This document shows, in pieces, positions 2,397 to 64,000 of a stretch of 64,000 nucleotides of DNA. The notes under the pieces are model-generated. The model was not told where the DNA came from and ran no database searches. It was given only the letters and a program-made list of their open reading frames with translations. Source of the stretch: Tribonema minus (lineage: Eukaryota; Sar; Xanthophyceae; Tribonematales; Tribonemataceae); the NCBI GenBank assembly GCA_017506865.1, contig JAFCMP010000510.1:62001-126000 (forward strand), in the 5' to 3' direction. Position numbers and translations under genes: made by a program. The stretch's first letter is position 1, and every line of letters begins with the position of its first letter.

Positions 2397-2567
2397 CGAG
2401 TGCTGCTGCACCGCTCGCTTGATGTTCAGGGCGTGAGCGTGGCGCCCCGATCCGTCGGATCGTGGCTCGCCTCCAATAAGACGGAGCTGCTATCGGGGAT
2501 AGCGGTGGCGCTGACCATGGTGCCCACGTCGGTGGCCTTTGCGTTTCTGGCGGAGATGGACCCGCAG
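2397..2567 (+). CDS. Transporter exon 1 (first visible)
   Basis: Encodes a short cytosolic stretch and SulP helix 1, ending Met-Asp-Pro-Gln before GTGAGA. The acceptor is placed after TTAG because the codon overlapping that AG would be a TAG stop. No in-frame ATG precedes the helix, so the start codon lies upstream. Phase 0 at its end. Confidence 0.8.
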
Positions 2568-5500
2568 GTGAGAGCTGTTGGTAGGTATGTTTGCCAGCTT
2601 GTGTGTGGTACAGCGCAAATGCCCGGCTCGCATATCAACACGTCGAACTTGAAGTTGATGACTCACCTTTCCATCTTGTTGCGCTCAGGACGGCCTCACG
2701 GGCGCGTGGATGATCTCTCTGGCCATGGCAGTGCTCGGCACACGTCCCGGCATGGTCTACTGCAACGCCGGCGCAGTGGCCGCGGTGATTGCGCCGCTCG
2801 TGCGCGAAAAAGGGGTGAGTCACTGGTTGAATTTAATAGGTGAAGTTTAGTTTTGGCAGTGCTCGGCACACGCCCCGGCATGGTGTACTGCAACGCCGGG
2901 GCGGTGGCCGCCGTCATCGCATCGCTCGGGCGAGACACAGGGTGAGTCTCTGGTTGAAGTTGGTTCAACCTCAATTATGGCCCTGGCAGTGCTCACAGCA
3001 CAAGCTTCAGCATGGTCTACTGCAACGCCAGCGCGGTAGCTGCAGTCATCGCGCCGCTCAAGCGCGAAAAGGGGTGTTTCACTGGTTGAACTTCACAGTT
3101 GAACTTTGTATTTCTGTCAGTGCCCGCAGTGCCCGCACCCAGGCATGGTGCACCAGAGCGTCGCTGCAGTGGCCGCCGATATCACACCGCTGGTGCGCAA
3201 ACAGGGGTGCATCACTGGTTGAATTTGATACTTCAGCAAGTAGTTGAACTTTCAGTGCTCGGCATGCGCCCTGGCACAGTGTTACAGTACTGCAAGTCTA
3301 CTACATCTTCATCTGCACCCAAATCATCATGGCTTCACCGGGCCTGCTCAGCCACATTGCTGCCCCCACCCTCCCCCTTAACCAGATTATAGCCCTTACG
3401 CCAACAGCAGCGCCTGAGTCATCACTCTATCTGTTTTTGTTCAGCAGATGTCGGCGTACGCCTACTACGCCTTCAACTTCGCAGGCATCATCATGGCGGT
3501 GCCTGGACTGCTGCGCGTAGGGCGGCTGCTGCACTTGCTGCCCATACCTACCCATATAACACATACCCATTGTTCCAAATGTAGTGAGCAGTGCGTCACT
3601 CACCACCCCTTTTTTTCCTGCGTCCGCAGTCGGCGTACGCCTAATACGCCTTCGTCTTTGCCGGCATCATCATGGCGGTGCTCGGACTGTTAAGCTGATT
3701 TGCTGCCCCGCCCCACGCTGTACCAGTTCATAGCCCTTGCGCCAGCAGCAGCACCTACTAGTAACTCATCACCCTTTCTTTTGTTTGTATCTGCTGCAGT
3801 CGGCGTATACTGCCTCACTTACTGTGGCGTGCTGCTTGTGCTGAGCGCAGCAGTCAACGTGCTACTACGCCTTCATGTTTGCCGGCATCATCATGGCAGT
3901 GCTCGGACTGCTCAGCTACTTTGCTCCCCCCACCCCGCCCCGTACCAATTCATAGCATTTTTGCCGACAGCAGCGCCTACTTCATCCCACTCTCTGTTCT
4001 TTTCCCATCTGCTGCAGTCGGCGTACGCCTACTACGCCTTCATCTTTGCCGGCATCATCATGGCAGTGCTCGGACTGCTGCGCGTAGGGCGGCTGCTGCG
4101 CCTATTGCCAGCGAGCGTCATGGTTGGCTTTGTCAACGGACTGTCCATTGTCGTGTTCATGGCGCAGTTTCGGCAGTTTCAGAATCCTCAGGTACTGCAC
4201 GCACAGTAGTCTTCTTTTCATTTCGTAATGCTCGCAACAGACATACTTTGGATGATCAGTCAAGAAGTTCTTCAGAGTGAGTTTACATACTTCAAAGTAT
4301 GTAACTGCCGGCGAGTGCCATGGTTGGCTTTGTCCACGGCCTGTCCATCGTCGTGTTCATGGCACAGTTCCGGCAGGTCCAAAATCCACAGGTGTGTACG
4401 TGGTCTTGTTCTCACTGCATTATACTTCTGAAGTACTACTATTTGCAATGACCGTACTTCTGGAGAGAGAAGCAAGTCGTACAAATAGAAGAATCAAGAG
4501 GTATGTGTTCCTGAACAGCATGGTATCAGGTCCATCAACAGCCTATGCATCGTCGTGTTCATGGCACAGTTCTGGCAGCTCCAAAATTTACAGGTGTGTA
4601 CGTAGTCTTGTTTTACATGCAGAGAAAATGCTTGCAATAATTCACAGTCAGGACGAGTACGAGTAGTTTTGAGGAGTAAAGAGTAGGAGTACTACTCGTT
4701 TTAAGACAGGGAGTTGTACTATTTTACTCGTTTAAATTTTCAAAAATGTCGGGAGTAGTACTCGAGTACTCGTGCATTTTTCCGACAGGCACCGGGAGTA
4801 CACCTAAAACGAGTAAGAACTCGAGTACTTGCCGCTGCCAATGACCGCCCGGGTGCGGCGCCCATGTCCAGTATGGCAGCAGCCACGATGATTTTGGTTG
4901 CGATCTTTATAGACGGGTGGGGCATACAGGGCGAGGTGTGCCCATGGCGGTGCAGTGACGTGAGCCCCACCTCCACGCATGCGATCAGCTGCCCCAGCCA
5001 GCACATACGGGGGCACAACGCGACACACACTGCCCAAAAGCGGTGCCTACAGCGCATCTTGAGACAGCACCATGTCTCTATTGTCCGCAATGAGGACAGC
5101 GTCTTCAAGGTACCGGGGTATCGGGCGGACACAGTCATTGACCCAGGGTGTCTGCACTTTAGCAGTGCATACCGTAACAAGGGAATAGTGCTAGACACAA
5201 GTGTTCGCGCGCCCACAGCGAGCTCGTACCTGACAGGCAAAACAAATGCCTCGAACACGGACGGCTATGCTGCTGGGGTGGGGGAGGACGCGAAGGTCAA
5301 GCACCACACCGGCACCTTGACGTCATCTTAGGCTTTTGTGCCATTCGTGCAGGAGTCGTACGGACGGCTGGGCAAGCAGACAAGCCTTTTTGTTAAGGAG
5401 TTGGCAATGCACTCAGCACTCTGCTCAGGGGGGGGGAAGGCAGATGTGTTACGCAAGGCCAAATTAGCTAAGCGTCAGATCCACATTGAGCTGAGCATAT

Positions 5501-8500
5501 CGCTGGCGCGGGAGTTGGCGGAGCGCGTCATGCCTACACACGTGGAGCGCGAATGCTGGGCTGTGTTGCGGCGCCGGTATCCAAACTCCTAGGGCACAGC
5601 GCAGACTAGGCTGCTGCGTTTTCGCAAGCTTTTCGATTGCATAGGCAACCCGGCCTCCCTTGGGCCTTTATAAATACAAGTCCATACGTACTTGACGAGT
5701 ACATGAGAAAGGAGTACTACACAAGTACTTGACGAGTACTTTGAGGAAAAGCAGTACTGCACGAGTACTGTACGAGTACTTTTGAGGAAAGGGAGTACTG
5801 CTCGAGTACTGTACGAGTACTTGACGAGTACCTTTTCGACGGTAATGGCCGAAGAGGCTCGGCTTTTGGGTCTCGTGCATGGCGCATGGTGCATTTGCTG
5901 TTGGCACCAAGGTACTGATAATTATTGATGCAAGATCTCTACACTGTACTGTAGATGTCGCGGTGCTGTGCTGATACGACCCAGCTTGCAGCATGAGCAA
6001 TCTGCAGCACTCGCAGAACGAGAGCAGGTGTGGGACATCGCATGAGCAATACTAATGTAGGCCTTATAAAAGCAACTTTGGTTATTGTCTGTGCTGCGAG
6101 CGGCTATTTTCCTGGGCCTTCCTTCGCTGAATGTATCGCAACTGCTGCAACTTGGCATAGGGATTCGAATAACGTGCTGCAGCCCGGAGTCTGGCGCCTC
6201 ACATTGCAGCGCTGCTATGAGGAAAACATACACTTTGATTTGTGGGGTAGCAGGTTGTCTGAGACAGTTTGACTCTTGCAGCATCCCGCATCAGCTGGCA
6301 TACCCAGAGCTTCACTTTGGTGCAGAAAAGCCTTCCTGATGTTGGGATTATTCTTTTTCAAAGAGAAGCATACATCATGTTTGTTTCCTCAAACACAGAT
6401 GCTGTCCATGATCTTGCATCCCCTCGCTGATCAGGCGCACGTTTGGAGGACATATAGCAGCGCAGATATCATGGCATTGCACGCATGGATGTTGTGAGGT
6501 TTTGTGTATGAAGTCATACATGATTGCAACAACAACATATATGTACTTTATTACTGTTTGCTGTGAAGTATTCATCGCAATTTTAGTACTCGTTGAGTAC
6601 TCCAGGTACTCGTTTAGTACTCTTGTACTCATTGATTACTCCTGGTACTCGTCAAGTACTCGAGTAAGTAAGTAAGTACTCGTACTAGGGTACATGTTCA
6701 TTCCTTGGGGGAGTAGTACTTGAGTACTCGTGTAAATTTTCAACTTTTCCGGGAGTAGTACTCGAGTACTCGTGTAAAACTTGAACTTTTCCGGGAGTAG
6801 TACTCGAGTACTCGTTACTCGTATTCGTAGTGACTGTGCAATAATCATCAGTTAAGTATTTAGACACATGAGAACAGGATCATGGAGTATGAGAACATGC
6901 TGCACAGGATGTGTACTCGGAGTGCGTCTGTATGTTGTTGGCTCCGTCGACGGCCTGTCCATTGTTGTGTCATGGCGCAGTTCCGCCGGTTTCAGAATCT
7001 ACAGGTACTGTAAGTAGTGTTGTTTTCAGGGCCTCCTACTCTGAACTTGTACTCTGAAGTGGTTCAGACCGTGGAAAATGATTACAGAAATGCAAATTGT
7101 CACTCTGTAGTTGATTTATACGTGAAGCATATGTACTCGTGGCAGGATGTTGCGGCATACGTACCACGCAGCTCTGCCCCACGTTCACCGGTGGGAGTCT
7201 GAACAGCCAGCAAATTCACTTTCATGCAGGTTCAATTTCATTGGCGGTCACAATAGACGCCGTCCGCCGATCAACTGCAATCATGGCAGATCAGCACACC
7301 CATCGTATGCAACTGCTGCGCAGTTCTGGCAACATCCGCTGTGCATCTCGATCTCGTTTCCTCAACGTGGGACTCGGACCTCTACTTTGCAGGCTGTTGC
7401 GTAAAATGGCGATTCGGGTTGTGCCGTCGGCGGCGGCAACGCTCGGTGGCTGAACAGCTCGAAGATTATCAATATTTGAACTTGCAGTTTCAACAGTCGG
7501 CGGTTTCACACACTGGCCCTACATTACGATTGCTTGGTTAATTACTTGTCTACTGCTTGTTTCTGTGATCACCACGCCGTTGCGTCAAATGGCGGTTCTG
7601 GTAGAGCCGTCGGTGGCGGCAGCGCTCGGCGCCTCACTGAACAGTGTCAAGATAATCACGTCAACTCTCAACCTGAAAAAGTTCCTAGAGACAGCTGTTT
7701 CACGCGCCGGCCGTACCATATGGCGCGCGCTGCATTCCTTTTTGTTCAATGCATACTGCTGTGACCTAAAACTCGTGCTCAGCAGGCTGTTGCGTCAAAT
7801 TGCGATTCGGGTAGCGCCGTCGGCGGCGGCAGCGCACGTTGGCTGAACAGCTTGAACATCATCAGAATTGTCAAGTCTGAAATTGAAGTTTCAATTCACA
7901 AAGCTGGTCCTACATGACACGCTCTGCTTTTCTTAATATTTGTTTGCTACACACTTCTGTTATCACCAGGCTGTTGCATCAAACGGCGATTCTGGTGGCG
8001 CCATCGGTGGTGGCAGTGCTCGACGCCTCAACAGCTTTGACGTGCTGTCTGCCGGCAACTGGATCGCCGGCACGGAGCTGTACTGGATGCTGGGAAATGT
8101 CGCCGTCACGATGGTGGTCAGCATCATGGCGCCGCGCATCATTCGCAAGGTATACACTTCAACTTGAAGTACACGCATAACCTATCTCAACTTGCAATTA
8201 CAAAGTCATAGCGAGGCAATGCTGGATGCTGGGAAACGTCGCCGACACGATGGTGGTCAGCATTTCGGCGCCGCGCGTCATTCGCAAGGTACTGTATGTA
8301 GAAGTACTGCAAAAATTACTCTTAACTTGAAAACATGTACGCTTCAGCTTGCAGTGCTGTAAAGGAACTTTCAAACCTACCTCAACTTGAAAGTAAACTT
8401 GAAACTACAAAGTAATACTGCAACCACTGGATGCTGGGCAACGTTGCCGTCACGATGGTCGTGAGCATCGCGGCGCCGCGCATCGTTCGCAAGGTGCACA

Positions 8501-11500
8501 CTTCAACTTAAAGTACACGTTTAGACTATTACTTTCTTCAACTTGAAACCACAAAGTATTAAACAACCACTGGGCGCTGGGCATTGCTGTCACGATGATC
8601 GTCAGCACCAACGGCGCCGTGCATCATTCGCAAGGTATATACTTCAAGTTGAAGTACTAAACCACTAAACTATAAAGTCATTAATTGGGGTACTACGCCA
8701 TCTGGATGCTGGGCAACGTCGCTGTCACGATGGTCGTGAGCATCGGGGTGCTGTGCATCATTTGCAAGATATACACTTCAACCTGAAGTACGTGCATGCA
8801 AAGAAGCTCACTCGCCCCGCACCCAATTCTCAAGTTTACAAGTACCTTCTCTGCCGCACTGCTGCTTTCACACGCAAATATCAACGGCGGTGTCTGCATT
8901 TGTCGCAGGCCGTGTTTTTGAGTGGGTTGTACTTCCTGCCCCTATGCTGCTTGGCTCGGAAATGCCTTGTCCCCCCTGCTCCCCCTCCCCTTTCAGTCCG
9001 TGAATGAGGTATGTATAGGGTGTGCCAGGGGCAAGTCAATGCCCAGGTCTTCAGCCTCGCCATGCTGACATATGCACACTTCGAAACACATCGCTGATGG
9101 AGTCAAGCACCTACACTTGCTTGGATACTTCTTCATGGTTATCTCTGGCAGGCACCGGCGGCGCTATCTGTAATCGTGGCAAGCTGCGCCTTTGAGTGGG
9201 GCTGTCACTGCCCCGTTTCTTGGCCCTTGCTATGTTGACAGTCACACAATTTTGACAGATGCCAGTACTTTGCAGTATCATATTGGCGGAAGGCACTTGC
9301 GGCTAACCATCCCTTGGCACCTTGAGCTCTACGATCCTTTGATTCGTTTTCATTGGTTTGACTGGTGGCCAATTGCCGCAGCTGCGGCGACCACGGTTAT
9401 TGGTGGAAGGCATTCAATTTGACGGCTAACCACACCTTTTCACCTAGAGCTCTACGATCTTTTGATACGTTTCAATTGCTTCGTTTTAGTTTTGACTCCA
9501 TCTACATATATATATATATATGTCTGGCGCGCAGGTGCCGGCCGCGCTGTTTGCGATCGTGGCGAGCTGCGCCTTTGAGTGGGGCGTCACGCGCGCCGCC
9601 GCGGGCGCGAGTACCAACCTCCTTCGCGATGTGGCACCTATCAGCGGCTCTCTACCGGTACGTTCACTCATCAATCCCTTGAAGTTTGCTGGAGAACCAA
9701 GCTCTCAAGTTGACAAAGAGCACAAAGCTTGCATGATGTGCGAATGTACGTTGCCCTGAGTGAGTATTGATGAGAAGTACGTCGCTATATGTATCAGGAG
9801 CATCACGGCGCGAGTACCAACCTACTGCGCGATGTGGCACCTTTAAGCGGCTCTCTACCGGTACGTATTTTGCTCAACCATGACTCAAATGTCTGGTACA
9901 GTACCTCTGCTATACAAACCTCTGCATGATGTACATTGGACATTGATGTGTACTTCACAGTATACACAGCTCATATACTTTGAGCTATAGCAATGTGTAA
10001 ATGGGGTTTCACGCGCGCCGTTGCGGGCGCAGATACATGTATACATGCATACATACTATAAGCATTGCACCCGGCACTTCTACATGTTGAAGAGAATCAC
10101 TCTGCGCCGACACGGGGCGAGAGGTCCAAGATTGAGTGAGCCCTGAAAGTGGTTTGTATAAGCGGATAAATCGTTATAGCAATCCCCTGTTTTGTCCTTG
10201 ATTCTAGCCTTAACCTAACCTTGACCCATCTGGCTGGTCAGCGCTCAGTACCTGCCTCCCCCTTGACAATCATCTCTCTTTGGCGCTGTGCCGTCAACAT
10301 ACATATAACAGTTTTTAGCACTAGGTCATGCACGAATGGCTTCCGTGGCAGTTGTGCACCCCAGCTCGTCTCCTTGCCCCAATTGCTGCGCATCTGCGCA
10401 GATTCCCATGTGGCTCAACAGTGCTCAGCAACCCCCCTCCGTCTCTGGTGCCGTGCTCGGCGCGGCGATGCCCACCGCCATTGCAAATGACTGACAGACT
10501 TAAGCACTGGATCATGTACGACTTGTTGCTCCAGCGGTTATACACACGCATGTCGTCTCCTTGCCCTAATTGCTGTGCAGATCCCCATCTGGCTAGACAG
10601 CGCTCAGCAACTGCCGCCACTCGACGGCGCCTTATTGGGCGCAGTGATGCCCACTGCCACCTAAATTCAACCCCATGTATATTTGATTATACTTCCCCCA
10701 ATTTACCCCAATGTATTTGTCCCCTTGCCAACCCCCCACCCCCCCCCCCCCCGCGTGCAGATCCCCATGTGGCTAGGCAGCGCTCAGCAATCGATGGCGC
10801 CTTATTGGGCGCGGTGATGCCCACGGCCTTCTTAATTACCTAAATCAATTGTGCTAATTCGCCGCAATGTATTTGTCCCCCTTGCCGATCCCCCCTTCCT
10901 GCAGATCCCCATCTGGCTAGACAGAGCTCAGCAACTGCCGCCACTAGATGGTGCGCTCTTGGGTGCGGTGATGCCCACGGCCATCACCGTCGCCGCCATC
11001 GCGCTCATAGAGTCGCTCGGCATGGTGCGCTACGTGACGGAGCTCGCAGACAGCGGCGCTGCTAAGACGCAGCGCACCAAAGCACCGCCGGATTTACGCA
11101 GGGAGGCATTCTGGTGAGCAGGGGTTCTTGATAAATGCTTCCCAGTGTTGTCAGACTTGACATCATGAAAGTATTCATCCGTTCACACACATTGAAGCAT
11201 AGGTGGTATATGTCAAGTAGTTGGCAGACAGCGAAGACGCAGCGCACAAAAGTGCCGCCTGACTTGCGGAGAGAGGCGTTCTGGTGAGTATAGGCTCTTT
11301 GTGAGCGGTTTAAAGACCATACTTTGATCATACATACACACGAAAAGACACATATGACAGAGCTCGCAGACAGCGGCGCCGCCAAGACGCAGCGTACGAA
11401 AGCGCCGCCTGATTTATGCAGGGAAGCATTCTGGTGAGTCTATTCAGCCTTTTGAGAAGGTGCACGTTTATAATAGGTCCTGGTTGAAGAAATATTATTG

Positions 11501-33820: not shown

Positions 33821-33825
33821 AACAG

Positions 33826-46200: not shown

Positions 46201-46211
46201 TACCGAGGCGG

Positions 46212-48905: not shown

Positions 48906-49156
48906 CTGTGCAGCGCGCGCAGCACCGCGATGTACAGCTCCGCGTCGTTGCCGGCAAATTGGTCCAGCACATCGAGCCGCGGCAGAGCGCTCAGCGGCGG
49001 CAGCCGCTGCGCCGGCAGCTGGTCGAGCAGCGCCGTCGACGCGAGCGCCATGAGCGGCACCGTGTAGTGCTCGGGGCGGTGGCTGGCGTCGCCGTGACGG
49101 ACGGGGGGCGCGGGGGGGGCGGGGGGGGGCGCCGGGCCTACCAGCGCTGCGGCCGG
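48906..49156 (-). CDS. Glycosyltransferase exon k
   Basis: Pro/Ala-rich linker, then a Leu-rich C-terminal region with Leu-Pro-Pro-Leu-Ser-Ala-Leu-Pro and Asn-Asp-Ala-Glu-Leu-Tyr. Acceptor CTCTCAG, donor GTACCG, phase 2 out. The proline run comes from C/G homopolymers that vary in length between echo copies. Confidence 0.82.
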
Positions 49157-49941: not shown

Positions 49942-50000
<59 letters not shown>

Positions 50001-50898
50001 TGTGTGTGTGTGTGTGTGTGTGCGTGTGTGTGTGCGGCAATTCTTGATGCAGTCGCTTTGGTATGGATCGTGCTTCGGCGCGACAGACGGGGGGCGCGGG
50101 GGGAGGGGGGGGGGGGGCGCCGGGCCTACCGTGGCAGCCGGCTGAGAAATTCAAAGGCAGTGCGGGCTGCGAGAATTGAATGCAGTAGTTTGTGGTTTGT
50201 GCGTGTGTGTGCACGGCAATTATTGTGTGATAGTTGCTCTTGTAAAGATCGAGTCTCGCCGTGACGGACGGTGGGCGCGTTAGCCGCGGGGGATGGGGGG
50301 GGGGGGGCTCCGGGTGCCACCACCAGCTGAGAGATTCAAATGCAGTAGTTCGCGGTTTGCATCAGTTTGTACGTGTGTGTGAGCGGCAGGTCTTGGTGAG
50401 TTCGCTTTTGCATGTGCCTCACACGTATCAAAGATGCAAACGAGGAGCGCGCGCGCGTATTGGTGACCGATATCTCAAGATCAGGCTGACCTGTGTCCTG
50501 TGTATGTGCTGTCCCGGCTCCAGCCAGTTGGTGGCGAAGCTAGTCTGGTTGTGGTAGTTGGGGTACAGCATGTAGTAGTCACGCTGATACGCCATCTCGA
50601 TGAAGTAGCGCTTCCAGCTTACGCGCCACCAGTTGGTCCTGCACGTATTACGGTAGGCATCCAGATTTTTTTTAATTCATTCATGAATGGATGAAAAATT
50701 GCAGTATGTGAGAGCGCTGGTACGCCATCTCGATGACATGGCGCTATCAGCAAACGCGCCACCAGTTGGTCCTGCGTGCATCAGAAAACCAGGATTGATT
50801 CATGGCCCTCACCTTGCCGCTGGCACGTGTACAACGATGTGCTCCTCCTTCAGGTGTGCACACTACAGCTGAAGGCTCCTGATGTCACGGCCCTAACC

Positions 50899-50937
<39 letters not shown>

Positions 50938-53900: not shown

Positions 53901-56900
53901 TCTAATTGCTCCGCGGAGTTGGAGTCGGAGTCGTGCGCCGAGCAAGTTGCTCCGGCTGGAGTCGGAGCGGAGTCGTACAGTTGCTCCAGAGCGAAAGGCC
54001 CCGACTCCTGGCTGAGCATGCTCAAACACGCATATTTGGTGCAATGCGGGCACGACGCAGTGCCGGGCTGTGGCTGCAAGTGGCTCAGAGACTGGAATGC
54101 ACAGTTTGAGGTGGTGCTGGTTGCAGCAAGGCAGGGTCGGAGTCGTACCGGAGTCGGAGCGGAGTCGGAGTCGTTTGGGCCGGCTCATTGCTCCCCGGAG
54201 TTGGAGTCGGAGTCGTCTACAATTGGGGCCAGCTCCCCGGAGCGGAGTCGGAGTCGTGGGCCCACGAGTCACTGCTCCCCGGAGCGGAGTCAGAGTCGTC
54301 CAGGTTTTGAGGAGTCGTGACAACCCCTGGAGTAAATGATACCCCCCCCTCCTTCATGCAGCGGGCAGTGGCTTGTCGGTGCAAGTGATTAGGCTTTAAG
54401 GTAGACTCAACGACTTACTCACTGTCGTTCGGGTACATTACCGTATTCACACGTGGATAGCCCCCCCCCCGCGATAACGTTCCTAGCTTCCGGCAGCATG
54501 CGGTATTACCGCGGGGGGGGGCTATTCAACGACCCCCGCGCTATGTGCTGGCATTCTCGCCGGAGCACCCCAAAAATAGCGCGGGGGGGGCAATTCACAG
54601 TCTGCGAGCAGCAGCATGGCAAGCACGCCAGCTACTACCGCAGGCAGTCAGCGCAAGCACGGCTACGCTAGCGACAGCTCCTGGGATCACTTTTTTTGGC
54701 ACTGACGGCTTTTCGCCGAAAGGCCAAGCTGTTACAAAGCTAGACACGCGCGCTTCTGCTGCGTGCAAACTCAAGCAGACGAACATAGATGGCATAGATG
54801 GTGTCACTGTTCGCAAACGCAACCATATGCATGTGTTTTGCTCATCTAGTGGCTGCCACAAGCGTTCATTCGTGACGAGAATACCCGCCCACGGGCTATA
54901 CAATGCCCCCCCCGGGCTATTGCGTGCAAGCCACTGCGCATCAAATAATCGATATCTTGGGGGGGCTACTCAGCCAAATAGCCCCCCCCCCCAAGTTATT
55001 TAAGGTGGGGGGGGCTATGAACGGGTGAATACGGTAGTACGACTCCGTCACGATGCAAATGAGACCCGCCTTCGGCGTGTGACAATGCTAGTCGTGAGGA
55101 TTAGTATCCAACGACTCTACGACTCACTCACTTGTCAGTTGGGTAGTACTTCAGAAGTACGACTCCGTCACGGCGCGAATGAGGCCCACCTTCAGCGTGT
55201 GACAATGCTAGTCGTTAGGATTAGCACCCAATGACTCTACAACTCACTCACTTGTCAGTCGGGTGGCACGACTAATGAGACCCACGTTCTGCGTGCGCAG
55301 GCTGGTACTGGTTTTCAAAGCTCATGCACCATGACTCAATGACTCACTCACTTGTCAGTCGGGAAGTACGACTCCGTCACGGCACAACTTTTGCAGGCTG
55401 ACACTGGTTGTTGAAATTTATACGCCATGACTCAATGACTCACTCACTTTTCAGTCGGGAAGAACGACTCCGCCACAACGCGACTGAGCCCCACCTTCAG
55501 CGCGTGACAATGCTAGTCTTGGAGATTGATACTCAATGACTCTACGACTCACTCACTTGTCAGTGGGGTAGTAGGACTCCGTTACAGCGCAAATGAGGCC
55601 CGCCTTTAGCGTGCGCATGGTTGTGGTGCAAATTATGGGGTTTTAAGGTGGACTCAATGACTCACTCACTCACTTGTCAGTGGGGTAGTAGGACTCTGTC
55701 ACTGCGCGAATGAGGCCTGCCTTCAGCGTGCGCAGGCTGGTGCTGGTGCGGCCGCGCTTGCCCCACAGGCCAGAAAATTCCTGGAAAAAGCGGTGGGTGG
55801 ATCAGCGATTGTGGTTACTCATTGGAAAGTACAGCAGGGGGATCAGACTGCATTTAAACATGTCTTACAGAAGTTATTGCCAATGCAAGTTGAGACACTT
55901 GCAGGTTTTCACGCCACATGTAGATTGTGGTCGCAGGCTGGATTTCTACCATCTGGGCTTTTTCTTGCCCCCTCAATGAGAATCGATATAAAGTACAGCA
56001 GATGCCGAGTCGAGAAGGGTGAGGGACAGGCGGACCAGGCTCTTACGGCGCGGCGCCTGGCAATGTCATTTTGCATGCTCGAACGCTGCGTGGTTTTTGC
56101 GACAAGACATATGCCGACACCCTGCAAAAAGCAAGCATTGCAGCGGCCATCTGACTTTCTCAGACAACTAGTGTAGACTTTTGAACAAATGATGTAAACC
56201 ATAGTGGACTTGAGAGGCAGAAAAAGTTGAGCACACTGCGCAGTCCTCCAGTGTCAGGGCCTTTCCTGCATGTACCAAGTATGAGTGTAAAGCGCACCAC
56301 TTGGGCCGCCCCTGTTAGTAAAGGTGACACACGTAGTGTAGAGCCATGCACACCAACCCTTAGCTGACCTCACCAGCAACACGCTGACTCACACCCTACG
56401 GTAGCCCTAACCCTAATTGTAACTCGGCAGCGTCTTGCCTCCAGCGCTGCTGTCGATGTTGAAGCCCAAAGTCCTTTCCCTGGGTTCATTCCCTTTCTTT
56501 CTGGCAACAATTTCGCGTGAGTGGTGCCGTCTGCAGCTGCGCGGCCCTAGCCTTGGCCTCGAAAGAGCCCTGCGCAACTGCCTAGCCCTAGCCCTATGCA
56601 GCGTCTCGTCGTCGGCGCTGCTGTCGACGTTGCAACCCGCTAATTCTCCTTCCTGTTCTTTTCCTCTGTCTTTCTCCTGATGACATAAGTACTTGAAGAA
56701 CTTGTGTTTGCTGAGCCATGCGCAACTGCCTAGCCCTAACCCTACCTGCACCAGCTGCAGCGTCTCGTCGTCGGCGCTGCTGTCGACGTTGAAGGACACG
56801 GGGACGGCGTCGCCAAAGAGCGCCGCGCCGCGCAGCGACGACAGCAGCCGCAGCAGGCTCCATGGCCTGTGCAGCACACAGGCATCCATGTCACAAGAAA

Positions 56901-59900
56901 AAGGGCTGAAGTTATGATCAGGATGCAAACGGGCCTGAAGACACAAGCGACAACTTGAGTGCTGTACGAAGTTTCGTACCGGTCAGGGCATAACTCCAAC
57001 ACTAACACAAACGTTGATGATCCTAACGCTGACATTGGCCGCGCCGCGCAGCGACGACAGCAGCCGCAGCAGGCTCCATGGCCTGCGCAGCACGCAGATG
57101 CAGAAACAGTATTACTTCTGTATATTTATGACCAGGTTTCAAATGGGCCTGAGAGGGTCACGCCTGACTACAACCCTTGTTCGATTGCAAATATTCCTGG
57201 CCCTTTGAAGGTAGGGCGCGCCGCGCAGCGACGACAGCAGCCGCAGCAGGCTCCACGGCCTGTGGACAATGAAAAATGTATTGAAGTCGTGATCAGATTG
57301 AAAAACAGTATTGAAGTTATGATCAGATCACGCCGCGGCGACGAGTTGAGTCCTGTATAAAAGTATCTGCAGGGTCAGGGCCTAACCCTAACCCTAACTC
57401 TATCCCTGACCCAAATGCTAATGATCCCCGCCCTAAGCTGAGGTCGGCCGCGCCGTGCAGCGATGACAGCAGCCGCAAGCAGGCCCCACGGCCTGAGTGG
57501 CACCGCAGAAAATAACAGCAAAAGTAATGAGTTCCTGTGCGGACGCATCTACAGGGCCAAGCTACACTGTCAAAGCTCAACAACGCTAACCACAAATGGT
57601 AATTGTAACCCTAAGGTCAACTGCGCTGTGTAGCGACGACAGCAGCCGAAGCAGGCTCTTTGGCCTGAGGACAGGACAGTGGAAGCGACAAGCCCTTGTG
57701 CTAAACCCTTAACCTACCCCTAGCCTAAACCTAACCCTAAGTCTAAATGTGTGGGGCGCGACCCTAGGCCTCTTGCTAGTCCTAGTCCCGATTCTAAGCT
57801 TGCCACGGAGCGCAGTAATGACAGCAGCTGCAGCAGGTCCACAGCCTGTGCAGCACACAAAGAGTAAATGCATCTATGAGAATGTTGTTGGAATACGCCA
57901 GTGATATGTGATACAGTACTCTACAAAAAATGAGTTCCAATCACTCCTCTACTTTAAACAGGGCAGCTGCGTGGCCCGGTCACGGTGAACGCGTGTCCTG
58001 TAACCCTCACCCTAACCCTCAGGAGTGTATTCGAGGGCTCGTTCGAAAATAGTGACGCTGCAAGTTGCGTGCAATCAGGCTGCTGATTCGTGTTTCAAGT
58101 GTGATTGCAATTGGTGCGCCTGGGATTCCAATGCAGCGCAACCTCGCCTGTTGTTTGTGACGACGCTGACCGAGAAGTTGGGTATGTGCCAGCTCGCCAG
58201 TGCCACGGGCTCCAGCGCTATAAAATACATATGTGAACATACCGCATGCGTATACCATTGCATCAGAAAAATGTTGTGATACTCCAGTGGTAGCTGAGAG
58301 TCCTAATCGTACTTCTACTTCAACGAATGCTGCGCACGTTCGCCTGTTGTTTGTGATGACGCTGACCGCGAACCAGGACATTTGCCATAGCCACCGGCTC
58401 CAGCGCTATGAAGTACTCATGCGCAAATACTGCATGCGTCTATCAATGCATTAGAAGAATGTTGTAATACTCCAAGTCATGTTTGATGGTCTCCTCATGC
58501 TGATATTCTCGAAGCAAGCAGCGAAAACTCGCCTGTCGTTCGTGATGACGCTGACTGAGGATTTGGGTATGCGCCAAGTTGCCACAGCTTCGAGGTCCGG
58601 CCCTATGAAGGACTCGTGCATGCACACTGCACGCTTGAACCAAAGAATAAGAGTTCACTACTAGAAATGTGATAGCACCTAGTATAATCCGTATGATGCA
58701 GCGCACTCTCGCCTGTCGTTCGTGATGACGCTGACCGAGAACTTGGGTATGTGCCAGCTCGCCAGCGCCACAGGCTCCAGGGTGGCGGTCCAAGCTGCTG
58801 ATGCCACGTCCTGCACACGTACACAGTTGGATGTGATGATGATCAGTGCAGTGCCTGGCGGTAGTGAAGTTTGTGTAGCACGACAGGCATGAGCACATGG
58901 TGCGCGTATTTTAATAATAGTTGTAATAAAATTAATTGCCCCCAAAATTGAAGCAGCTCCGGCTGCATTGCTGCATCCCCGCTCGAAGCTCCTCAAGACT
59001 GCAACAGGGGCACAGCCCCGCTCAGCAGCATGAAGACGGCGGCGCTGGCGCTCTGGTGCTGCGCGCGCACGCGAGCCAAGTCAAACTTCAGCACAAACTT
59101 CAAGCCACACTTCACTGTTGATGTAAACCCTCCCCTCAGCAGCGCCCCTGCGGTGGCACAAATACGGGGGGGGGGGGGCTGTGATGCACGGCTCGAACCC
59201 CCTTGGCACATCCCTAAGGCCGCGGTGCAACATCGGCACTGCCGAAGCACCTTCCCCCGCCGCTGAAGCTGGTGCGAGTCCTGCTGCCCGCGAGTCAAGC
59301 TTGAATTAACGCAAAATTCATGTCAAACTTCAAGGCAAACTGCAACCTTAGTTGCAGGCTCACGGCGCACCTGCGGCAGCATGAAGGCGGGCGCGCTGGC
59401 GCCCTGATGCTGCGCACACAGGCGGGCCAAGTCAAATTTCAACACAAAACTTCAAGCCAAACTTCACTGTGCGCCAAATCAAACTTTAACACAAACTTCA
59501 CTACTGTGCGCCAAATCAAACTTTAACACAAACGTCAAGCCAAACTTCACTTTCGATTTAGCTCCCCGCTCAGCGGCGCACCTGCGACAGCATTAAGATG
59601 GGGGCGCTGGCGCCCCGGGTGCTGCGTGCACGCGAGCCGAGTAAACCTTCAACACAAACTTCAAGACAAACTTCACTATTGATTCTAGCTCCCGCAGCAA
59701 GCGCACCTGCGGCGGCATGAGGATGGGGGCGCTGGCGCCCTGATGCTGCGCGCACGCGTCTCGGATGGCCCTGCGGCGCGCGCGGGCAGCAGCACGGCAG
59801 CGCTCAGTGAACTTCAACAACAATGACCTCAACAACGCGTCGAAGGCGTGAACGAACGGCGATGCACCGCGGACCGCAGCCTCTTTGCTGCGCACGCAAG

Positions 59901-62900
59901 TCCTGGATGGCCCTGCGGTGCGCATTAGGGTTAGGTTCAGGGTTTAGAATGAGGGTTATCAGCATGGCAGCGCGCAGTAAACTTGAACAACAATATTCAG
60001 AGCCGTTCGGCAACTTCAGTAACAAAATTCGGGCCAAAAACCAGGAACCAGCAAGGGGCACAGAAAGGGGGGGCGGCAAGCGCGTGGTAGCCAGTCACAC
60101 TCTGCTCAATCACGCGTTCACACTTAGGTTTAGAGTTAGGGTTAGGACCAAAGCTCTTCTGGTCACGGCAACACCAGACTGAGTCAGCAAGTCGGCAGCG
60201 AGCCTGCTCGACTAAAAAAATAAAAATCAACGCGTCGGAAGCGCAAATGAACGGTGACGCGACGCACGCAGCGCGGACAGCCACAGCCTCTTTGAGGCTT
60301 GAAGTCCTGCGCAAACTTCAACAACGATACCTCAAACGCGGTCGAAGCGTGAGCGAAACGACAGCGAGGACCGCAGCCTCTTCAAATTTGGAAGCATACG
60401 GTGAGGCGCGGTGGGGTGCAGGGGCACCCCGGCTTGTCGGGCAGTGCTCAGTAACGTTCAAGATTACGGATGAAAGCTCAAGTGCGTGCGTGCATGCTGC
60501 GCGGAGGTAGTGAAACATCAACAACGCGTCGGAAGCGCGAACGAACGGCGACGCGACGCACGCAGCGCAGACAGCCACAGCCTCTTTGAGGCTTGAAGTC
60601 CTGCGCAAGCTTCAACAACAATACCTCAACGCGTCCAAAGCGTGAGCGAACAGCAGGACGCCGCGCAGCACGGTGCGAGGAGTCGCAGCCTCGTTTTCAA
60701 CATTGAAGCCCTGCGGCTCAGGTGCGATGGGGTGCAGGGGGGCAGCACGGCTTGTAGAGCAGTGCTAAGTAAAGTTCACCACCACGGATGAAACGGATGA
60801 AGGCTTGAGAGCGCGCATGCTGCATGGAGGTGGTGAGAGATATCGCGACGCCCGAGTGCAACGGCATTTGAAACTTTAGCCCCCTCCCCCCCTCCCCCCC
60901 CCGTCATTGCAGCAGTGTGCCCCCATTCGCGACTTGGCACAACTCGAGCACAATGCGTCCACCGGTGCACGCAAGAGAATCAGGGTAAGGGTCAAGAGTA
61001 GGGCTATGCCCTTCTTTAGTGACGGAGTACAACAGAGTATGACGAGGGTTCCCGGTTCTGATGACATGACCTCCGCGCTGATGCCAATGACCGCAACAGC
61101 TACGTACAACAAAATCAACGGATTCACTTGCATGAAAGCTCCAACAGTTATGTACAACAACATTAACGGATTCACTTGCATGAAAGCCCAATGAAGGACG
61201 AGTACCAGTTCCTGATGGCGATGTCCTGCACAAGTGCCAATGACCGCGTCAAACGCGTTGAATTCGTGAATTTATGCGCCTCAAGCTGGTACAATTGAGG
61301 GCAGACAGAGGTACGCCAAGTTTTGTACCTACTTTTGATGGCATTGCCCGCTGCGCTGGTGCCAACGACGCGATCAGCACATACGACTGCAGCAGCACAC
61401 AACTGTATCCACGAAATTGATGTACATTGATGTGGTGATATTTGAAGTAGGGGGAAAGAAATCAACTACAAACACGTACCTATTTCGGATGGCGTTGCCC
61501 GCTGCGCTGGTGCCGATGACCGCGACCGGCGCGTATGACTGCAGCAGTGCTCCCCAGCCGTACGGCCCCGGCGCAGTCAGCACGTCGGCCGCTGCTCGCT
61601 GCCACTCACGCTTCAGGGGCGCGTGCTCATCCTGCCACATGCGCACATTCATGAATGTGAATGAACGCTGATTGAGAGTGTTCATATCGCCGCCTGCCGT
61701 GATCGCTTCAGGGGCGCGTGCTCGTCCTGCGGCGCGCATCAATGAATGAATTCATACAAGAATTTTATCTGAATTCATGGACAAAAACTGTCTTTGAACT
61801 GCCTGAGGGGCACGTGCTCGTCCTGCCACATTCGCACATGCATGAACGTGAATGAACGTTGATCGAGAAACATGTGGAGTGCTCATCTCGCCACGCGTTC
61901 ATTCACGAGCGTGAGTGAACGCGAGAAAGCGCTGATAAGTGCTGCGCTCTTCCGCTCGCGCTTCAGGGCGTGCTCATCCTGCGGCGCGCGTTGATGCATG
62001 AATTCACACATGCCTTTGTGGATGAATTCATGAATGAAAACTAAGTACTTGAGGGCGCGTGCCCATCCTGCAGTACGTGTACGCATGTTCATGAACATGC
62101 TTGAACGCTGATTGAAAGTTACGTGAGCGCTCATCTCGCAAGCATGTGAACACTTATTGATCATCGCCCCTCACCTCCGGTCCCAGGCCCAAACCGCATA
62201 GACCTCGTAGACGTCGCCCATGGCGAACGCACACAGCCAGGCAAAAAAAGCACATCAATTTGAGGTTGCTACAGTTACTATCATCATCGCCCCTCCCCTG
62301 CGGTTCCAGGACTGACACCGCAGAGGCCTCAGAGATCAGCTAGCACTTCAAAACGAAGTTGCTACAGTTATTAGCCAACCTCCCTCCGGTCCCAGAGCCC
62401 ACACCGCGTATGTGGATCTCGTAGACGTCGCCCACGGCGAACGCGCGCACCAAACGGCAAGCAGTACTTCATGTTGAAGTTACTGCAGTTGATTTGTCAG
62501 AGCTTCACCTTCTGTCCCAGGACCCACACCGCGTAGGCTTTGTAGACCTCACCAGCGGCAATGTTCGCAGCCAGTGCTTCAAGTTGTTGAGGTTGCTACA
62601 GTTACTTCACGTTGCCCCTCACCTCCGGTCCCAGGGCCCACACGCGTAGACCGCAGGCAGCACTTCAAGGTGAAGTTGATACCAGTTCTTTCATGTTGCA
62701 GTTGTTACAGTAAACTTGCCTCACCTCCGGTCCAAGCGCTCACACCGCGTAGACCTCCTAGACCTCGCCCGCAGCCGAACGCGCGCAGCAAACGGCAACC
62801 AGTACTTCATGTTGAAGTTGCTAAAGTGACTTTCTCCAGCCTCACTTCGGGTCCCATGCGTAGGCCTTAAAGCTCAGCGAACACTTGAAGGTGAAGTTTC

Positions 62901-63059
62901 TGGTGCATCGGCCTTACCTCCGGTCCCAGCGCCCAAACTGCGTAGACTTCGTAGACGTCGCCGGCGGCGAATGCGCGCAGCAGCGGCAGCAGGTCCGCCG
63001 CGTCGCGCGCGCCGCCGACCACGAGGACCACCGGCTCGCGCGCAAACGCCCGGATGCAG
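48906..63059 (-). CDS. GT-A type glycosyltransferase, visible part of gene
   Basis: Eleven exons (a-k, 5' to 3' on the minus strand) join with consistent phases into 479 codons without a stop. In order: an N-terminal Rossmann-like segment (Pro-Val-Val-Leu-Val-Val-Gly-Gly); Val-Ser-Val-Ile-Thr-Asn-Asp-Arg-Pro, the nucleotide-sugar-binding start; a Leu-Leu-Ser-Ser-Leu helix; Leu-Glu-Asp-Asp-Ile-Glu-Val-Ser-Pro, the metal-binding acidic motif; Tyr-Gly-Ile-Ser-Leu-Tyr; Pro-Cys-Ser-Trp-Gly; Trp-Trp-Arg-Val-Ser-Trp; and Tyr-Pro-Asn-Tyr-His-Asn-Gln. This order matches a plant/algal group of GT2-like glycosyltransferases of unproven substrate. It probably acts in the Golgi or ER. The 5' end lies beyond 64000 or in unrecognised exons, and the 3' end past 48906 is unresolved. 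Confidence 0.9.
49157..50490 (-). repeat. Intron j-k: six 5' echoes of exon k, (TG)n tract
   Basis: Copies of the CTCTCAG acceptor, the CCGGCCGC exon start, the poly-C part and the CGTCACGG that follows lie at about 49295-49378, 49470-49530, 49640-49715, 49828-49898, 50080-50145 and 50258-50330. A (TG)n/(CA)n microsatellite fills 49921-50035. Confidence 0.9.
49921..50035. repeat. TG dinucleotide microsatellite
   Basis: More than 50 TG units with a few GA and GC interruptions, between two exon-k echoes. Confidence 0.95.
50491..50638 (-). CDS. Glycosyltransferase exon j
   Basis: Asn-Trp-Trp-Arg-Val-Ser-Trp-Lys-Arg-Tyr-Phe-Ile-Glu, Met-Leu-Tyr-Pro-Asn-Tyr and Gly-Gln-His: the conserved C-terminal block of this glycosyltransferase group. 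The first base completes an Arg codon. Donor GTCAGC, phase 0. Confidence 0.93.
50639..51127 (-). repeat. Intron i-j: echoes and telomeric tract
   Basis: A copy of the first part of exon j lies at 50705-50775. Copies of the end of exon i with donor lie at 50803-50862 and, weaker, 51005-51050. A clean CCCTAA tract lies at 50891-50950. Confidence 0.87.
50891..50950 (-). repeat. Interstitial telomeric tract
   Basis: About nine CCCTAA units with one length slip, between two exon-i echoes. Confidence 0.93.
51128..51204 (-). CDS. Glycosyltransferase exon i
   Basis: 25 codons, Ala-Trp-Met-Glu-Phe-Arg-Ala-Tyr-Leu and His-Val-Pro-Ala-Ala. Acceptor TTGCACAG, donor GTGAGG, phase 2. Confidence 0.9.
51205..51756 (-). 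repeat. Intron h-i: echoes of exon h
   Basis: Copies of the end of exon h lie at about 51600-51690, 51489-51550 and 51416-51436, interleaved with TTCAAGTGC/ACTTGAAGT motifs. Confidence 0.88.
51757..51904 (-). CDS. Glycosyltransferase exon h
   Basis: Leu-Tyr-Thr-Pro-Arg-Leu-Asn-Glu after a Ser completed across the junction (giving Tyr-Gly-Ile-Ser-Leu-Tyr), then Pro-Cys-Ser-Trp-Gly-Gly-Val-Tyr-Phe. Both are hallmark blocks of the family. Donor GTGAGG, phase 0. Confidence 0.95.
52341..52366 (+). repeat. Interstitial TTAGGG tract
   Basis: Four units, last one degenerate. Confidence 0.85.
52595..52614 (+). repeat. Interstitial TTAGGG tract inside an echo
   Basis: Three units placed where the middle of an exon-g copy should be. 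Confidence 0.8.
53000..53131 (-). CDS. Glycosyltransferase exon g
   Basis: Leu-Leu-Glu-Asp-Asp-Ile-Glu-Val-Ser-Pro, the catalytic metal-binding motif, followed by Phe-Tyr-Ala-Trp-Ala-Lys. Acceptor TCAACAG, donor GTATTT, phase 2. Confidence 0.96.
53811..54329. mobile_element. Non-autonomous hAT-type element with perfect 8-bp target duplication
   Basis: Terminal inverted repeats of about 20 bases start CAGGGGTTGTCACGACTCCT and match on the other end. GAGTAAAT is present directly at both sides (53803-53810 and 54330-54337). The 519-base interior is built largely of GGAGTCGGAGTCGT-type repeats pointing both ways around a short unique core and has no transposase. CAGGGG ends and an 8-bp duplication are typical of hAT. 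It sits inside an exon-f echo. Confidence 0.93.
54438..55034. mobile_element. Second TIR element with C/G-run ends
   Basis: Ends are inverted copies: ACCGTATTCAC, then ATAGCCCCCC, at the left, and the reverse complement at the right ending GTGAATACGGT. Further short inverted poly-C/poly-G blocks lie inside. No coding capacity is seen. The target duplication was not resolved beyond a possible GTA. Flanks are the two halves of an exon-f echo. Confidence 0.75.
55674..55780 (-). CDS. Glycosyltransferase exon f
   Basis: Gly-Leu-Trp-Gly-Lys-Arg-Gly, then Gly-Leu-Ile-Arg-Ala-Val-Thr-Glu-Ser-Tyr-Tyr-Pro, the conserved lead-in to the acidic motif. Acceptor TTTTCCAG, donor GTGAGT, phase 2. Confidence 0.94.
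55781..56745 (-). repeat. Intron e-f: echoes of exon e and a DR2 piece
   Basis: Copies of the end of exon e lie at 56596-56635 and 56428-56460. A block at 55955-56000 resembles the DR2 repeat at 40820-40860. A telomere-like CCCTAA lies at 56404-56416. 56000-56400 shows nothing else. Confidence 0.8.
56746..56866 (-). CDS. Glycosyltransferase exon e
   Basis: Pro-Trp-Ser-Leu-Leu-Arg-Leu-Leu-Ser-Ser-Leu and Asn-Val-Asp-Ser-Ser-Ala, the helix and strand after the Asn-Asp-Arg motif. The first base completes that Arg. Acceptor TGCACAG, donor GTAGGG, phase 0. Confidence 0.94.
56867..58712 (-). repeat. Intron d-e: GC-AG intron with echoes of exons d and e
   Basis: Copies of the end of exon d, each keeping AG followed by GCGA, lie at about 58528-58605, 58341-58410 and 58145-58225. 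Copies of the acceptor and start of exon e lie at about 57043-57095, 57222-57267, 57453-57499, 57630-57670 and 57810-57852. CCCTAA tracts lie at 57381-57397, 57700-57745 and 58000-58018. Confidence 0.9.
58713..58810 (-). CDS. Glycosyltransferase exon d (GC donor)
   Basis: Trp-His-Ile-Pro-Lys-Phe-Ser-Val-Ser-Val-Ile-Thr-Asn-Asp, entering the first strand of the GT-A fold. The frame and family alignment require the exon to end at AG with intron start GCGAGA, so this is a GC-AG intron. Confidence 0.9.
58811..59706 (-). repeat. Intron c-d: echoes of exon c
   Basis: Copies of the last 55-65 bases of exon c lie at about 59571-59636, 59368-59425 and 59015-59075, separated by CAAACTTCA-rich intron sequence. 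Confidence 0.88.
59707..59770 (-). CDS. Glycosyltransferase exon c
   Basis: 21 codons after the completing base, Ala-Ile-Arg-Asp-Ala-Cys-Ala-Gln-His and Ile-Leu-Met-Pro-Pro-Gln. Supported by phase and by echoes; sequence conservation is low here. Confidence 0.75.
59771..61479 (-). repeat. Intron b-c: echoes of exons b and c, 294-bp tandem repeat
   Basis: Copies of the end of exon b lie at about 61328-61385, 61204-61250 and 61050-61105. A copy of the start of exon c lies at 59884-59925. A two-unit tandem repeat with 294-base spacing covers about 60228-60720. TTAGGG-like tracts lie at 59925-59945 and 60125-60145. Confidence 0.85.
60228..60720. repeat. 294-bp tandem repeat
   Basis: Shared block GACGCGACGCACGCAGCGC through GAGGCTTGAAGTCCTGCGC near 60255 and 60549. 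Parts resemble 59840-59890, so it may be an extended exon-c echo. Confidence 0.8.
61480..61631 (-). CDS. Glycosyltransferase exon b
   Basis: Pro-Leu-Lys-Arg-Glu-Trp, Pro-Tyr-Gly-Trp-Gly-Ala-Leu-Leu and Val-Ile-Gly-Thr-Ser-Ala-Ala-Gly-Asn. Acceptor TGGCAG, donor GTACGT, phase 2. Confidence 0.85.
61632..62917 (-). repeat. Intron a-b: eleven echoes of exons a and b
   Basis: Copies of the end of exon a with donor lie at about 62832-62870, 62719-62790, 62618-62660, 62507-62575, 62387-62455, 62285-62340 and 62168-62230. Copies of the start of exon b lie at about 61690-61735, 61800-61835, 61953-61995 and 62049-62078. Palindromes like ACTTCATGTTGAAGT follow several exon-a donors. Confidence 0.92.
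62918..63059 (-). CDS. Glycosyltransferase exon a (first recognised)
   Basis: 47 codons after a completing base: Cys-Ile-Arg-Ala-Phe-Ala-Arg-Glu-Pro-Val-Val-Leu-Val-Val-Gly-Gly, then Val-Tyr-Glu-Val-Tyr-Ala-Val-Trp. Donor GTAAGG, phase 0. Upstream exons are not seen and the gene probably continues past 64000. Confidence 0.87.
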
Positions 63060-64000
63060 CTGAACGTAGATGTGATTCGGAAGGGTGCATGAAAGTAAGA
63101 GGCACGTAGAAACCCAGGAAGGCACGGTGTACGGCGAGGTGCACACACTTTCGCTCGAACAAACATCTGGTGCGCAGCTGTTGGGTTGACGCCGTTGACC
63201 ACGAGGACCACTGGCTCGCGCGCGAATGCCCGGATGCAGCTGAGCGTTCACATGGCACGCACAGGACCGCATTGTTCATTGATGCTCCTGTATTATGCAT
63301 GACGCGATGTGTCATATGACATGATTCACATGAAGCATGCTATAACAATGAGGCCCGTTTCAATGCGTGTGTGGCCGCCGACCACGAGGACCACCGGCTC
63401 GCGCGCGAACGCCCGGATGCAGCTGAGCATTGACACATGGCACGGACAGGACCGCACTGTTAATTGATGCTCCATTTTGCATGGCATCATGTTGTGCGCA
63501 ATGAAGCATGCATATGACTCTATCATGGGGCTGTTGCAACGCGTGCGTGGCTGCCGATCACGAGGAGCACCGGCTCGCGCGCGAACGCCCGGACGCAGCT
63601 GAGCGTTGAGATGGCACGGATAGGATTGATGAACTGATACTCCTGGGTGCATGACATGATGTGTCATGATATATGGTTTTGAAGTATGTACTTGAAGTAT
63701 ATAGAAGTATAGGTTTAATATGAAGCAGGCGTACGAGTATGGGGCCCGTGGCAGTGCGTACACGGCCGCCTTCCACGAGCTCTGCCGGCTCGCGCGCGAG
63801 CGCCCGGACGCAGCTGAGCGTTGACACATGGCACGGATAGGACTGCTTTGATCAATTCATTGATGGTTGTTTGTGCATGACATGGATGTGTTAGATGAAA
63901 GTAAGCACGCAAACTGCCATGGGCCCACGGCCCGCGTCTCCGACCACGAGGACCAACAGCTCGCGCGCGAATGCCCGGAGCGCCGGGGGCGTCAGAGCTG
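63060..64000 (-). repeat. Five 5' echoes of exon a
   Basis: Copies of the acceptor and first 55-65 bases of exon a lie at about 63182-63246, 63372-63426, 63545-63609, 63766-63819 and 63940-63998. The last runs to the window edge, so the array may continue. Confidence 0.9.

Follow-up and report, generated by a model that had tools for sequence, protein, structure and literature searches.

Genes and Exon-Edge Arrays of the Window

The window analysed here is a stretch of 64,000 nucleotides from the alga Tribonema minus, positions 62001-126000 of contig C507 in a genome assembly of 554 contigs and 158,181,000 bases, with a guanine-plus-cytosine (GC) content of about 55%. Its exons are accompanied in the adjoining introns by diverged partial copies of their own edges, which we call echoes: an upstream copy consists of the end of the intron, the AG and the start of the exon, and a downstream copy of the end of the exon, the GT and the start of the intron. 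A set of 25 exons was examined. Twenty of them were proposed by a repeat-blind gene finder based on codon usage and splice sites, several boundaries were corrected by hand and five exons were added by hand after the arrays were known, so that the set is not fully repeat-blind. Gene prediction over the whole window fused neighbouring genes and served solely as a source of exon candidates. Among its predictions were the core parts of a SulP sulfate transporter gene, a pirin exon and a further gene on the plus strand and of one gene on the minus strand, and all 25 exons are open in their stated frames. A preliminary description of the window had reported echoes in four genes on both strands; echoes are found at all four, although the pirin gene was checked at one exon and two of the genes have no match in Pfam.

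The SulP-type sulfate transporter gene (2430..22619, plus strand) is predicted to contain 11 exons, as judged by the gene finder, hand correction, reading phase and Pfam: 2430-2567, 2689-2814, 4018-4191, 7970-8149, 9535-9657, 10905-11113, 16869-16940, 17561-17801, 19158-19352, 20715-20849 and 21837-21986. All 10 of its splice junctions fit in phase, and the joined exons match Sulfate_transp (PF00916) with an E value of 3.2e-22 over profile positions 3-364 of 380. Exon 2689-2814 has its 3' edge copied at 2720..3282, followed by arrays of the 5' edge (3298..4099) and the 3' edge (4106..4614) of exon 4018-4191. Exon 7970-8149 is flanked by three upstream copies of its 5' edge (7389..8037) and four downstream copies of its 3' edge (8082..8797); exon positions 61-68 mark the ends of the upstream copies, and all downstream copies start at 113-114. 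Exon 9535-9657 has a 5' edge copy at 9148..9590 and a 3' edge copy at 9604..9866. The sixth exon, 10905-11113, has a 5' edge array at 10308..10985 and a 3' edge array at 11032..12373, in which seven downstream copies were found where eight had been claimed. Both edges are arrayed around exons 16869-16940 (16648..17151) and 19158-19352 (18843..19667), exon 17561-17801 has six 3' edge copies over 17747..18807, a 5' edge copy of exon 20715-20849 is found at 20489..20759, and exon 21837-21986 together with four copies of its 3' edge occupies 21837..22619. The introns of this gene also contain repeats of other kinds: a 539-bp unit present three times in tandem (12574-14246), 98-99% identical and with CCCTAAC-like repeats; an inverted repeat (14131-14480/14669-15028) adjoining that tandem; and AGTACTC-type minisatellites on either side of a 2-kb stretch (4709-6815).

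The minus-strand gene (48438..63979), delimited by the gene finder and by hand, also has 11 exons: 63059-62918, 61631-61480, 59770-59707, 58797-58707, 56866-56746, 55780-55674, 53131-53000, 51904-51757, 51204-51128, 50638-50491 and 49156-48906. The preliminary description took it to be a glycosyltransferase, a name that stays putative, and a Pfam search with it gave no match. Nine of its 10 junctions fit in phase, and the single misfit suggests a missed exon. Across both main genes, 19 of 20 junctions keep the phase, for which the chance is about 1e-8; perfect phase, as claimed earlier, holds for the transporter and fails at one junction here, and the stated totals of 666, 293 and 375 codons were not reproduced. 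Exon GC is 0.64-0.67 and intron GC 0.51-0.54 in these two genes. The 5' edge of exon 62918-63059 is arrayed over 62999..63979 and its 3' edge over 62166..62992, while exon 61480-61631 has a 5' edge array (61591..62139) and a 3' edge copy (61325..61547). Arrays of 3' edges are found for exons 59707-59770 (59025..59758) and 58707-58797 (58130..58780). Exon 56746-56866 has a 3' edge array at 56402..56794 and a 5' edge array at 56822..57859, in which the identity of the exon part is 1.00, 0.98, 0.91, 0.86 and 0.78 going outward. The 3' edge array of exon 55674-55780 (53542..55749) contains eight copies, two of them about 2 kb off; seven had been claimed for an exon called a of the same gene, which is perhaps another exon. 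Both edges are arrayed at exons 53000-53131 (52704..53305) and 51757-51904 (51412..52143). A 3' edge array of exon 51128-51204 and a 5' edge copy of exon 50491-50638 share 50582..51175, and exon 48906-49156 lies between six copies of its 5' edge (49023..50383) and a 3' edge array (48438..49004).

The remaining exons are on the plus strand. The pirin exon 36954-37196 (Pfam PF17954, E value 6.1e-8) has two modest 3' edge copies of 78-80% identity (feature 36954..37412). Exon 39533-39946, assigned to a membrane protein in the preliminary description, has three copies of its 3' edge (39533..40332), and a Pfam search with its gene gave no match. Three copies of the 5' edge of exon 41915-42000 are found within 41243..42000.

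Anatomy and Polarity of the Echoes

The preliminary description had proposed comparing the window with itself, with shuffled sequence and with the rest of its genome. Self-comparison by BLAST yielded 280 off-diagonal pairs, and those less than 2.5 kb apart were mostly direct (216, with 11 inverted); the local direct pairs group into 52 clusters, which were assigned to exons by hand. Around the 25 exons, 118 diverged local copies were counted, and 39 of the 50 exon edges are echoed. The polarity is strict. All 103 copies that contain exactly one exon edge carry the edge facing them, and none carries the wrong edge alone. Among the 44 upstream copies, 41 hold the 5' edge and three hold no edge; among the 74 downstream copies, 62 hold the 3' edge only, 11 hold no edge and one spans a whole exon of 64 bp at 62% identity, a doubtful case and the only whole-exon copy. 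At least 10 bp of the adjoining intron is included in 31 of the upstream and 47 of the downstream copies, or 78 of the 118 overall, and 104 of the 118 come within two bases of the exon end when aligned leniently. The median spacing of the copies is 173 bp (10-90% range, 111-219). Their identity to the exon ranges from 62 to 100%, and they are thus not copied reads. The earlier picture of many diverged copies per exon, duplicated outward across the splice sites from an exon whose middle is normally single, is borne out by these counts.

The core of the screen published for "exon stuttering" in chicken (Hron et al., 2026; PMC12954441) was also applied to the 22 exons of the two main genes, using blastn-short on the plus strand only with a length of at least 20 and 42.1 bits, and as applied here without the published multi-source and manual filters. 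It returned 53 proximal hits, in the adjacent introns, and none in distal (other) introns or in shuffled introns.

Elsewhere in the window, an Rfam scan gave no match at gathering scores. Two genes on the minus strand (27110-28423 and 30455-32323), which we take to be ankyrin-like, contain 81-bp coding repeats. Interstitial telomere-like TTAGGG/CCCTAA runs occur at 919-965, 50891-50953 and other positions, several of them within introns.

Echoes Elsewhere in the Genome

The echoes are not confined to the window. Twenty 10-kb pieces, drawn at random from 18 contigs of known length and falling on 12, contain 193 direct and three inverted local repeats, and block-shuffled controls contain none. 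At least one local repeat is found in 17 of the 20 pieces and at least five in 12 pieces, on seven of the 12 contigs sampled. Local copies accompany 30 of the 63 coding segments in these pieces, with the same polarity as in the window. When window and random pieces are combined, 42 of 77 coding segments have a copy, and the upstream hits number 25, 15, 7, 3 and 0 from the first to the fifth fifth of the segment, while the downstream hits number 0, 1, 5, 29 and 31. Copy-bearing segments in the random pieces are shorter than the others (median 165 vs. 249 bp, p = 0.009). Random genes read by eye, some of which we take to be plastin-, acetyltransferase-, PP2A- and MAPK-like, have the same anatomy, and an HSP105-like exon among them matches 6gfa with an E value of 3.3e-10.

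Among 20 light-harvesting loci, copies are present at some and absent at others. One pair of paralogues, whose exon differs at 22 of 351 columns, differs in this respect: the gene on contig C1 (L013) has two upstream and three downstream copies, and that on contig C79 (L012) has an intron with no copy. An intron can therefore exist without echoes, and one of the two lineages has either acquired the echoes or lost them. A C-run was seen by eye at the C1 array. The closest solved structures to one light-harvesting protein of the genome are fucoxanthin-chlorophyll a/c proteins, which points to a probable source among algae of the red-plastid, chlorophyll a/c kind; a second protein is less clear. 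Phaeocystis globosa was set aside as a candidate source because its GC content of 64.6% (PMC11347835) departs from the roughly 55% of the window.

The units of an array are not members of a dispersed family, as far as could be judged from three echo-rich queries. With 40 of 162 candidates scored, the echo units of a 3.6-kb query from the window found matches only at their own locus, and everything that the query hit beyond it was one unrelated dispersed element of about 140 bp. Two further queries, with 40 of 47 and 24 of 24 candidates scored, reached other places by way of paralogous exons or of repeats of another kind. That the echoes are an assembly artefact or a dispersed element, such as an introner or a transposon, has nothing but their repetitiveness in its favour; copies that differ by up to 38%, the strong excess of direct repeats at random loci, the lack of dispersed echo units among the candidates scored and the lack of distal hits all speak against it. 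The earlier view that the copies are no assembly artefact is supported, and we regard this explanation as hardly credible.

Other repeats and duplicated regions were seen along the way. The dispersed element of about 140 bp, at approximately 55860-56010 and unrelated to the echoes, has at least 43 matches elsewhere at 72-80% identity among the 40 of 162 candidates scored. Contigs C90 and C179 (L047/L048) are collinear and about 95% identical and represent haplotypes or a large duplication; in the 5 kb of each that were compared, a repeat of about 90 bp within an open frame occurs once more in L047 than in L048, and no echo array lies in this stretch. Short PsaA/PsaB-like fragments, some with stops, are found at 11 places in the genome and are probably plastid DNA in the nuclear assembly.

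Divergence of the Copies

The 108 copies with at least 30 exon bases mismatch the exon at a rate of 0.120 at the first codon position, 0.111 at the second and 0.247 at the third. The intron parts have a median identity of 0.79 by copy and of about 0.71-0.76 by position close to the junction, corresponding to a mismatch of about 0.21-0.29. The pattern is close to that produced when the exon is under constraint and the copy is free to change. Frameshifts are found in 38 of the 108 copies and in-frame stops in 16.

These figures bear on the possibility that the copies are functional, as alternative exons or as decoy splice sites kept by selection. The AG of the upstream copies is conserved at 60 of 62 bases in 31 copies (p = 0.005 against 0.86, uncorrected for ancestry shared within arrays), as such a function would lead one to expect. 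The GT of the downstream copies is kept at 78 of 94 bases and decays like its surroundings, in 35 of 79 cases the spacing between copies is divisible by three (remainders 0, 1 and 2: 35, 21 and 23, which is not significant by a rough estimate), and the frameshifts and stops are equally at odds with use as exons. We consider a function of this kind very improbable.

The preliminary description had proposed comparing the divergence of copies with their distance from the exon. Of 79 adjacent pairs, 47 have the more similar copy nearer to the exon (p = 0.057), and the mean Spearman coefficient between distance and divergence is 0.39 over 21 arrays, so that the trend is weak. A ladder-like conveyor belt, with the newest copy beside the exon, was rejected on this account. 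The spread of identities is in keeping with the earlier proposal that duplication is running continuously, which is plausible from the alignments.

An Echo-Bearing Intron That May Be Young

The preliminary description had pointed to tandem duplication across AG-GT as a route to new introns. Conceivably, echo-bearing introns are recent gains that arose, for instance, when coding sequence was duplicated in tandem, and the echoes are by-products. The case in point is an intron of about 1.24 kb (approximately 4186-5425) in a gene at random locus L031 that is presumably p300/KAT11-like. It contains three copies of the 3' edge of the first exon (88-97%) and three short copies of the 5' edge of the second exon (91-92%), and it is absent at 22 paralogous, stop-free places in the same genome that match with E values of 7e-14 or better. 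In the nearest paralogues, on contigs C113 (753860-754010) and C549 (419165-419315), with amino-acid identities of 81 and 79%, the coding sequence is continuous on reading; C549 has its own downstream copy of the 3' part of the second exon (418862-418953), and none was seen in L031. Just before its final G, the L031 intron ends in TACCGCA, which repeats the end of the upstream exon. These features fit an intron that was gained recently, with a short repeat at its flank, and stuttered afterwards, though the intron may instead have been lost elsewhere. Thus, some echo-bearing introns may be young, to judge from this comparison of paralogues.

The echoes themselves are another matter. An intron born by AG-GT duplication would have a copy of the exon past the splice site, and intron sequence is found there instead, so that AG-GT duplication fails as an account of the copies; 78 of the 118 window copies include 10 bp or more of the intron next to them, and the echo-free intron of the C79 light-harvesting paralogue points the same way. 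In L031, the start of the intron is unlike the start of the downstream exon, and no copy joins the two exons. The earlier suggestion is therefore retained in so far as an echo-filled intron is missing from paralogues and given up as an account of the copies, and we judge intron birth to be an unlikely source of the echoes. The 7-base repeat at the end of the L031 intron leaves another route of gain open. A case of intron gain by tandem duplication in potato has been reported (PMC4974935).

Origin of the Arrays

We propose that the echoes result from recurrent tandem duplications of about 100-230 bp across exon-intron junctions, filtered by selection, which is to say from exon stuttering, and we place the probability of this explanation at roughly 0.57. 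Short segments that span a junction would be tandemly duplicated, through events presumably related to replication or repair, and the arrays would grow, probably by unequal exchange, and decay. A duplication that extends from the interior of an exon into the intron would leave the complete exon on the innermost copy and partial copies on the intron side. Duplications within an exon or of a whole exon would alter the messenger RNA (mRNA) and be removed by purifying selection, while those that leave the exon intact would be tolerated, spliced out and left to decay, so that both edges would be echoed outward and the middle would stay single. The repeat spacing exceeds the length of many exons, yet whole-exon copies are nearly absent, which fits such a filter. 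In favour of the explanation as a whole are the anatomy, direct orientation, locality and polarity of the copies, their presence at random loci, a divergence that fits a constrained exon beside free copies, and the paralogue pair in which one member is echoed and the other is not. Since topology and selection suffice for the polarity, the polarity alone is no proof of a special mechanism.

Several observations weigh against this explanation. In the strict chicken screen, only 31 of the 53 hits come to within 5 bp of the exon border that faces them. The crude ratio of nonsynonymous to synonymous differences is 0.30, below the value of about 0.5 expected with one free partner, for which GC-rich third positions may be the cause. 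The three intron bases and two exon bases around the AG are kept at 0.94-1.00, against 0.84 in the exon, a retention not predicted by neutral decay. Uniform random duplication also predicts many intron-only arrays, and in the two main genes 35 of 39 clusters, as assigned by hand and with one of the 35 (59810-60836) ambiguous, involve an exon edge. The expected fraction is 0.14 for the transporter and 0.17 for the minus-strand gene with their present structure, and 0.25 and 0.63 on array-free intron alone (0.40 and 0.78 at half detectability of intron-only arrays). With the introns collapsed it becomes 0.23 and 0.48, or 0.37 and 0.65 at half detectability. Finally, the exon part of the upstream copies is held to 23-80 bp in the window, and in all 17 arrays it is below 0.4 of the permitted range (Kolmogorov-Smirnov [KS] p = 1.7e-6).

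The excess of edges means that either the introns were short when the arrays began or the junctions are hotspots. If all introns were 200 bp long, the expected fractions would be 0.87 and 0.85 (0.93 and 0.92 at half detectability). The binomial probability, calculated for 35 of 38 clusters, is 2e-11 at a fraction of 0.4 and 0.04 at 0.8. If the junctions are hotspots, duplication would be targeted to them, with the pyrimidine tract, the donor region or RNA/DNA structures formed there during transcription and splicing as the cause. Such targeting would account for the predominance of edges in genes in which most introns exceed 900 bp, for the narrow range of the upstream exon part and for the retention around the AG, and when six random arrays that lacked an evident coding segment nearby (four at L033 and two at L037) were read by eye, five sat on an exon edge. 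Against it, the excess disappears if introns were of about 200 bp at the start; moreover, the breakpoints of the 22 downstream arrays are compatible with a uniform distribution (KS p = 0.096), the tight upstream limit is not reproduced in the random loci, where it reaches 114 bp with approximate segment edges, the arrays were assigned to exons by hand, and L037 5505-5724 has no exon by eye. We therefore regard targeting as a possibility to be held tentatively. The same doubt attaches to its wider form, a genome-wide, junction-directed duplication of about 170 bp by which introns, new ones included, would grow from their ends and by which most of the intron sequence in affected genes would be decayed echo. 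In that form, the hotspots would owe their existence to DNA damage linked to transcription or splicing, or to pyrimidine or donor sequences.

Comparison with Known Systems

Exon stuttering, as proposed here for the alga, shares features with several other processes. Like minisatellites subject to unequal exchange, the echoes are direct repeats arranged in tandem at fairly even intervals, and their copies have diverged; unlike them, their units are anchored on exon edges with splice sites, and the functional member is innermost. Introner elements also shape introns genome-wide, whereas here no dispersed echo-unit family was found among the candidates scored and no hits were distal. Intron gain by AG-GT tandem duplication has the tandem duplication and the splice sites in common, and one echo-filled intron here looks young, but the echoes run outward and carry intron flanks.

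The closest counterpart is in chicken. In February 2026, Hron et al. (PMC12954441) described "sequence stuttering," clusters of repeats in the introns of genes on dot microchromosomes, and "exon stuttering," in which a lateral part of an exon is copied with its donor or acceptor along the neighbouring intron and the exon itself remains whole. They counted 236 such introns in 115 genes, of which 190 are on dot chromosomes, where they make up 3.4% of the introns. More than 90% of the copied sources reach to within 1 base of the exon border, the exon part has a median of 36 bp, intron-only clusters are usual, intron length is extensively polymorphic between individuals, and gerbil genes are mentioned as data not shown (Hron et al., 2026; PMC12954441). 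A search of one literature collection by both terms found exon or sequence stuttering solely in that paper, and a wider search revealed no recognisable algal case, judging by titles and the openings of abstracts. The preliminary description knew of no named system with this anatomy; the name exists, and the echoes of the alga belong structurally with exon stuttering.

The two cases have in common the imperfect direct tandem repeats of an exon edge with its splice site, confined to the adjacent intron of an intact exon; the proximal and not distal position of the copies; the existence of paralogues without stuttering; and the GC-rich exons. They differ in density, which is 3.4% of dot-chromosome introns in chicken, whereas in the alga copies accompany 39 of 50 edges of the window's exons and 30 of 63 random coding segments. 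They also differ in the exon part, with the chicken median of 36 bp against 50 bp upstream and 61 bp downstream per array here, and perhaps in the intron-only clusters, usual in chicken and apparently scarce here, with four of the 39 hand-assigned clusters of the two main genes. Stuttering in chicken is concentrated on GC-rich microchromosomes (Hron et al., 2026; PMC12954441), whereas in the alga pieces with at least five local repeats are found on seven of 12 sampled contigs. The microchromosome link is a circumstance of the chicken case and not of the structure. If it can be cultured, the alga may offer a microbial system for intron lengthening, for the choice of the spliceosome among near-copies and for junctions as mutational hotspots. 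The presence of the same anatomy, far denser, in so distant an organism suggests that exon stuttering is a general mode of intron growth and not a peculiarity of avian dot chromosomes.

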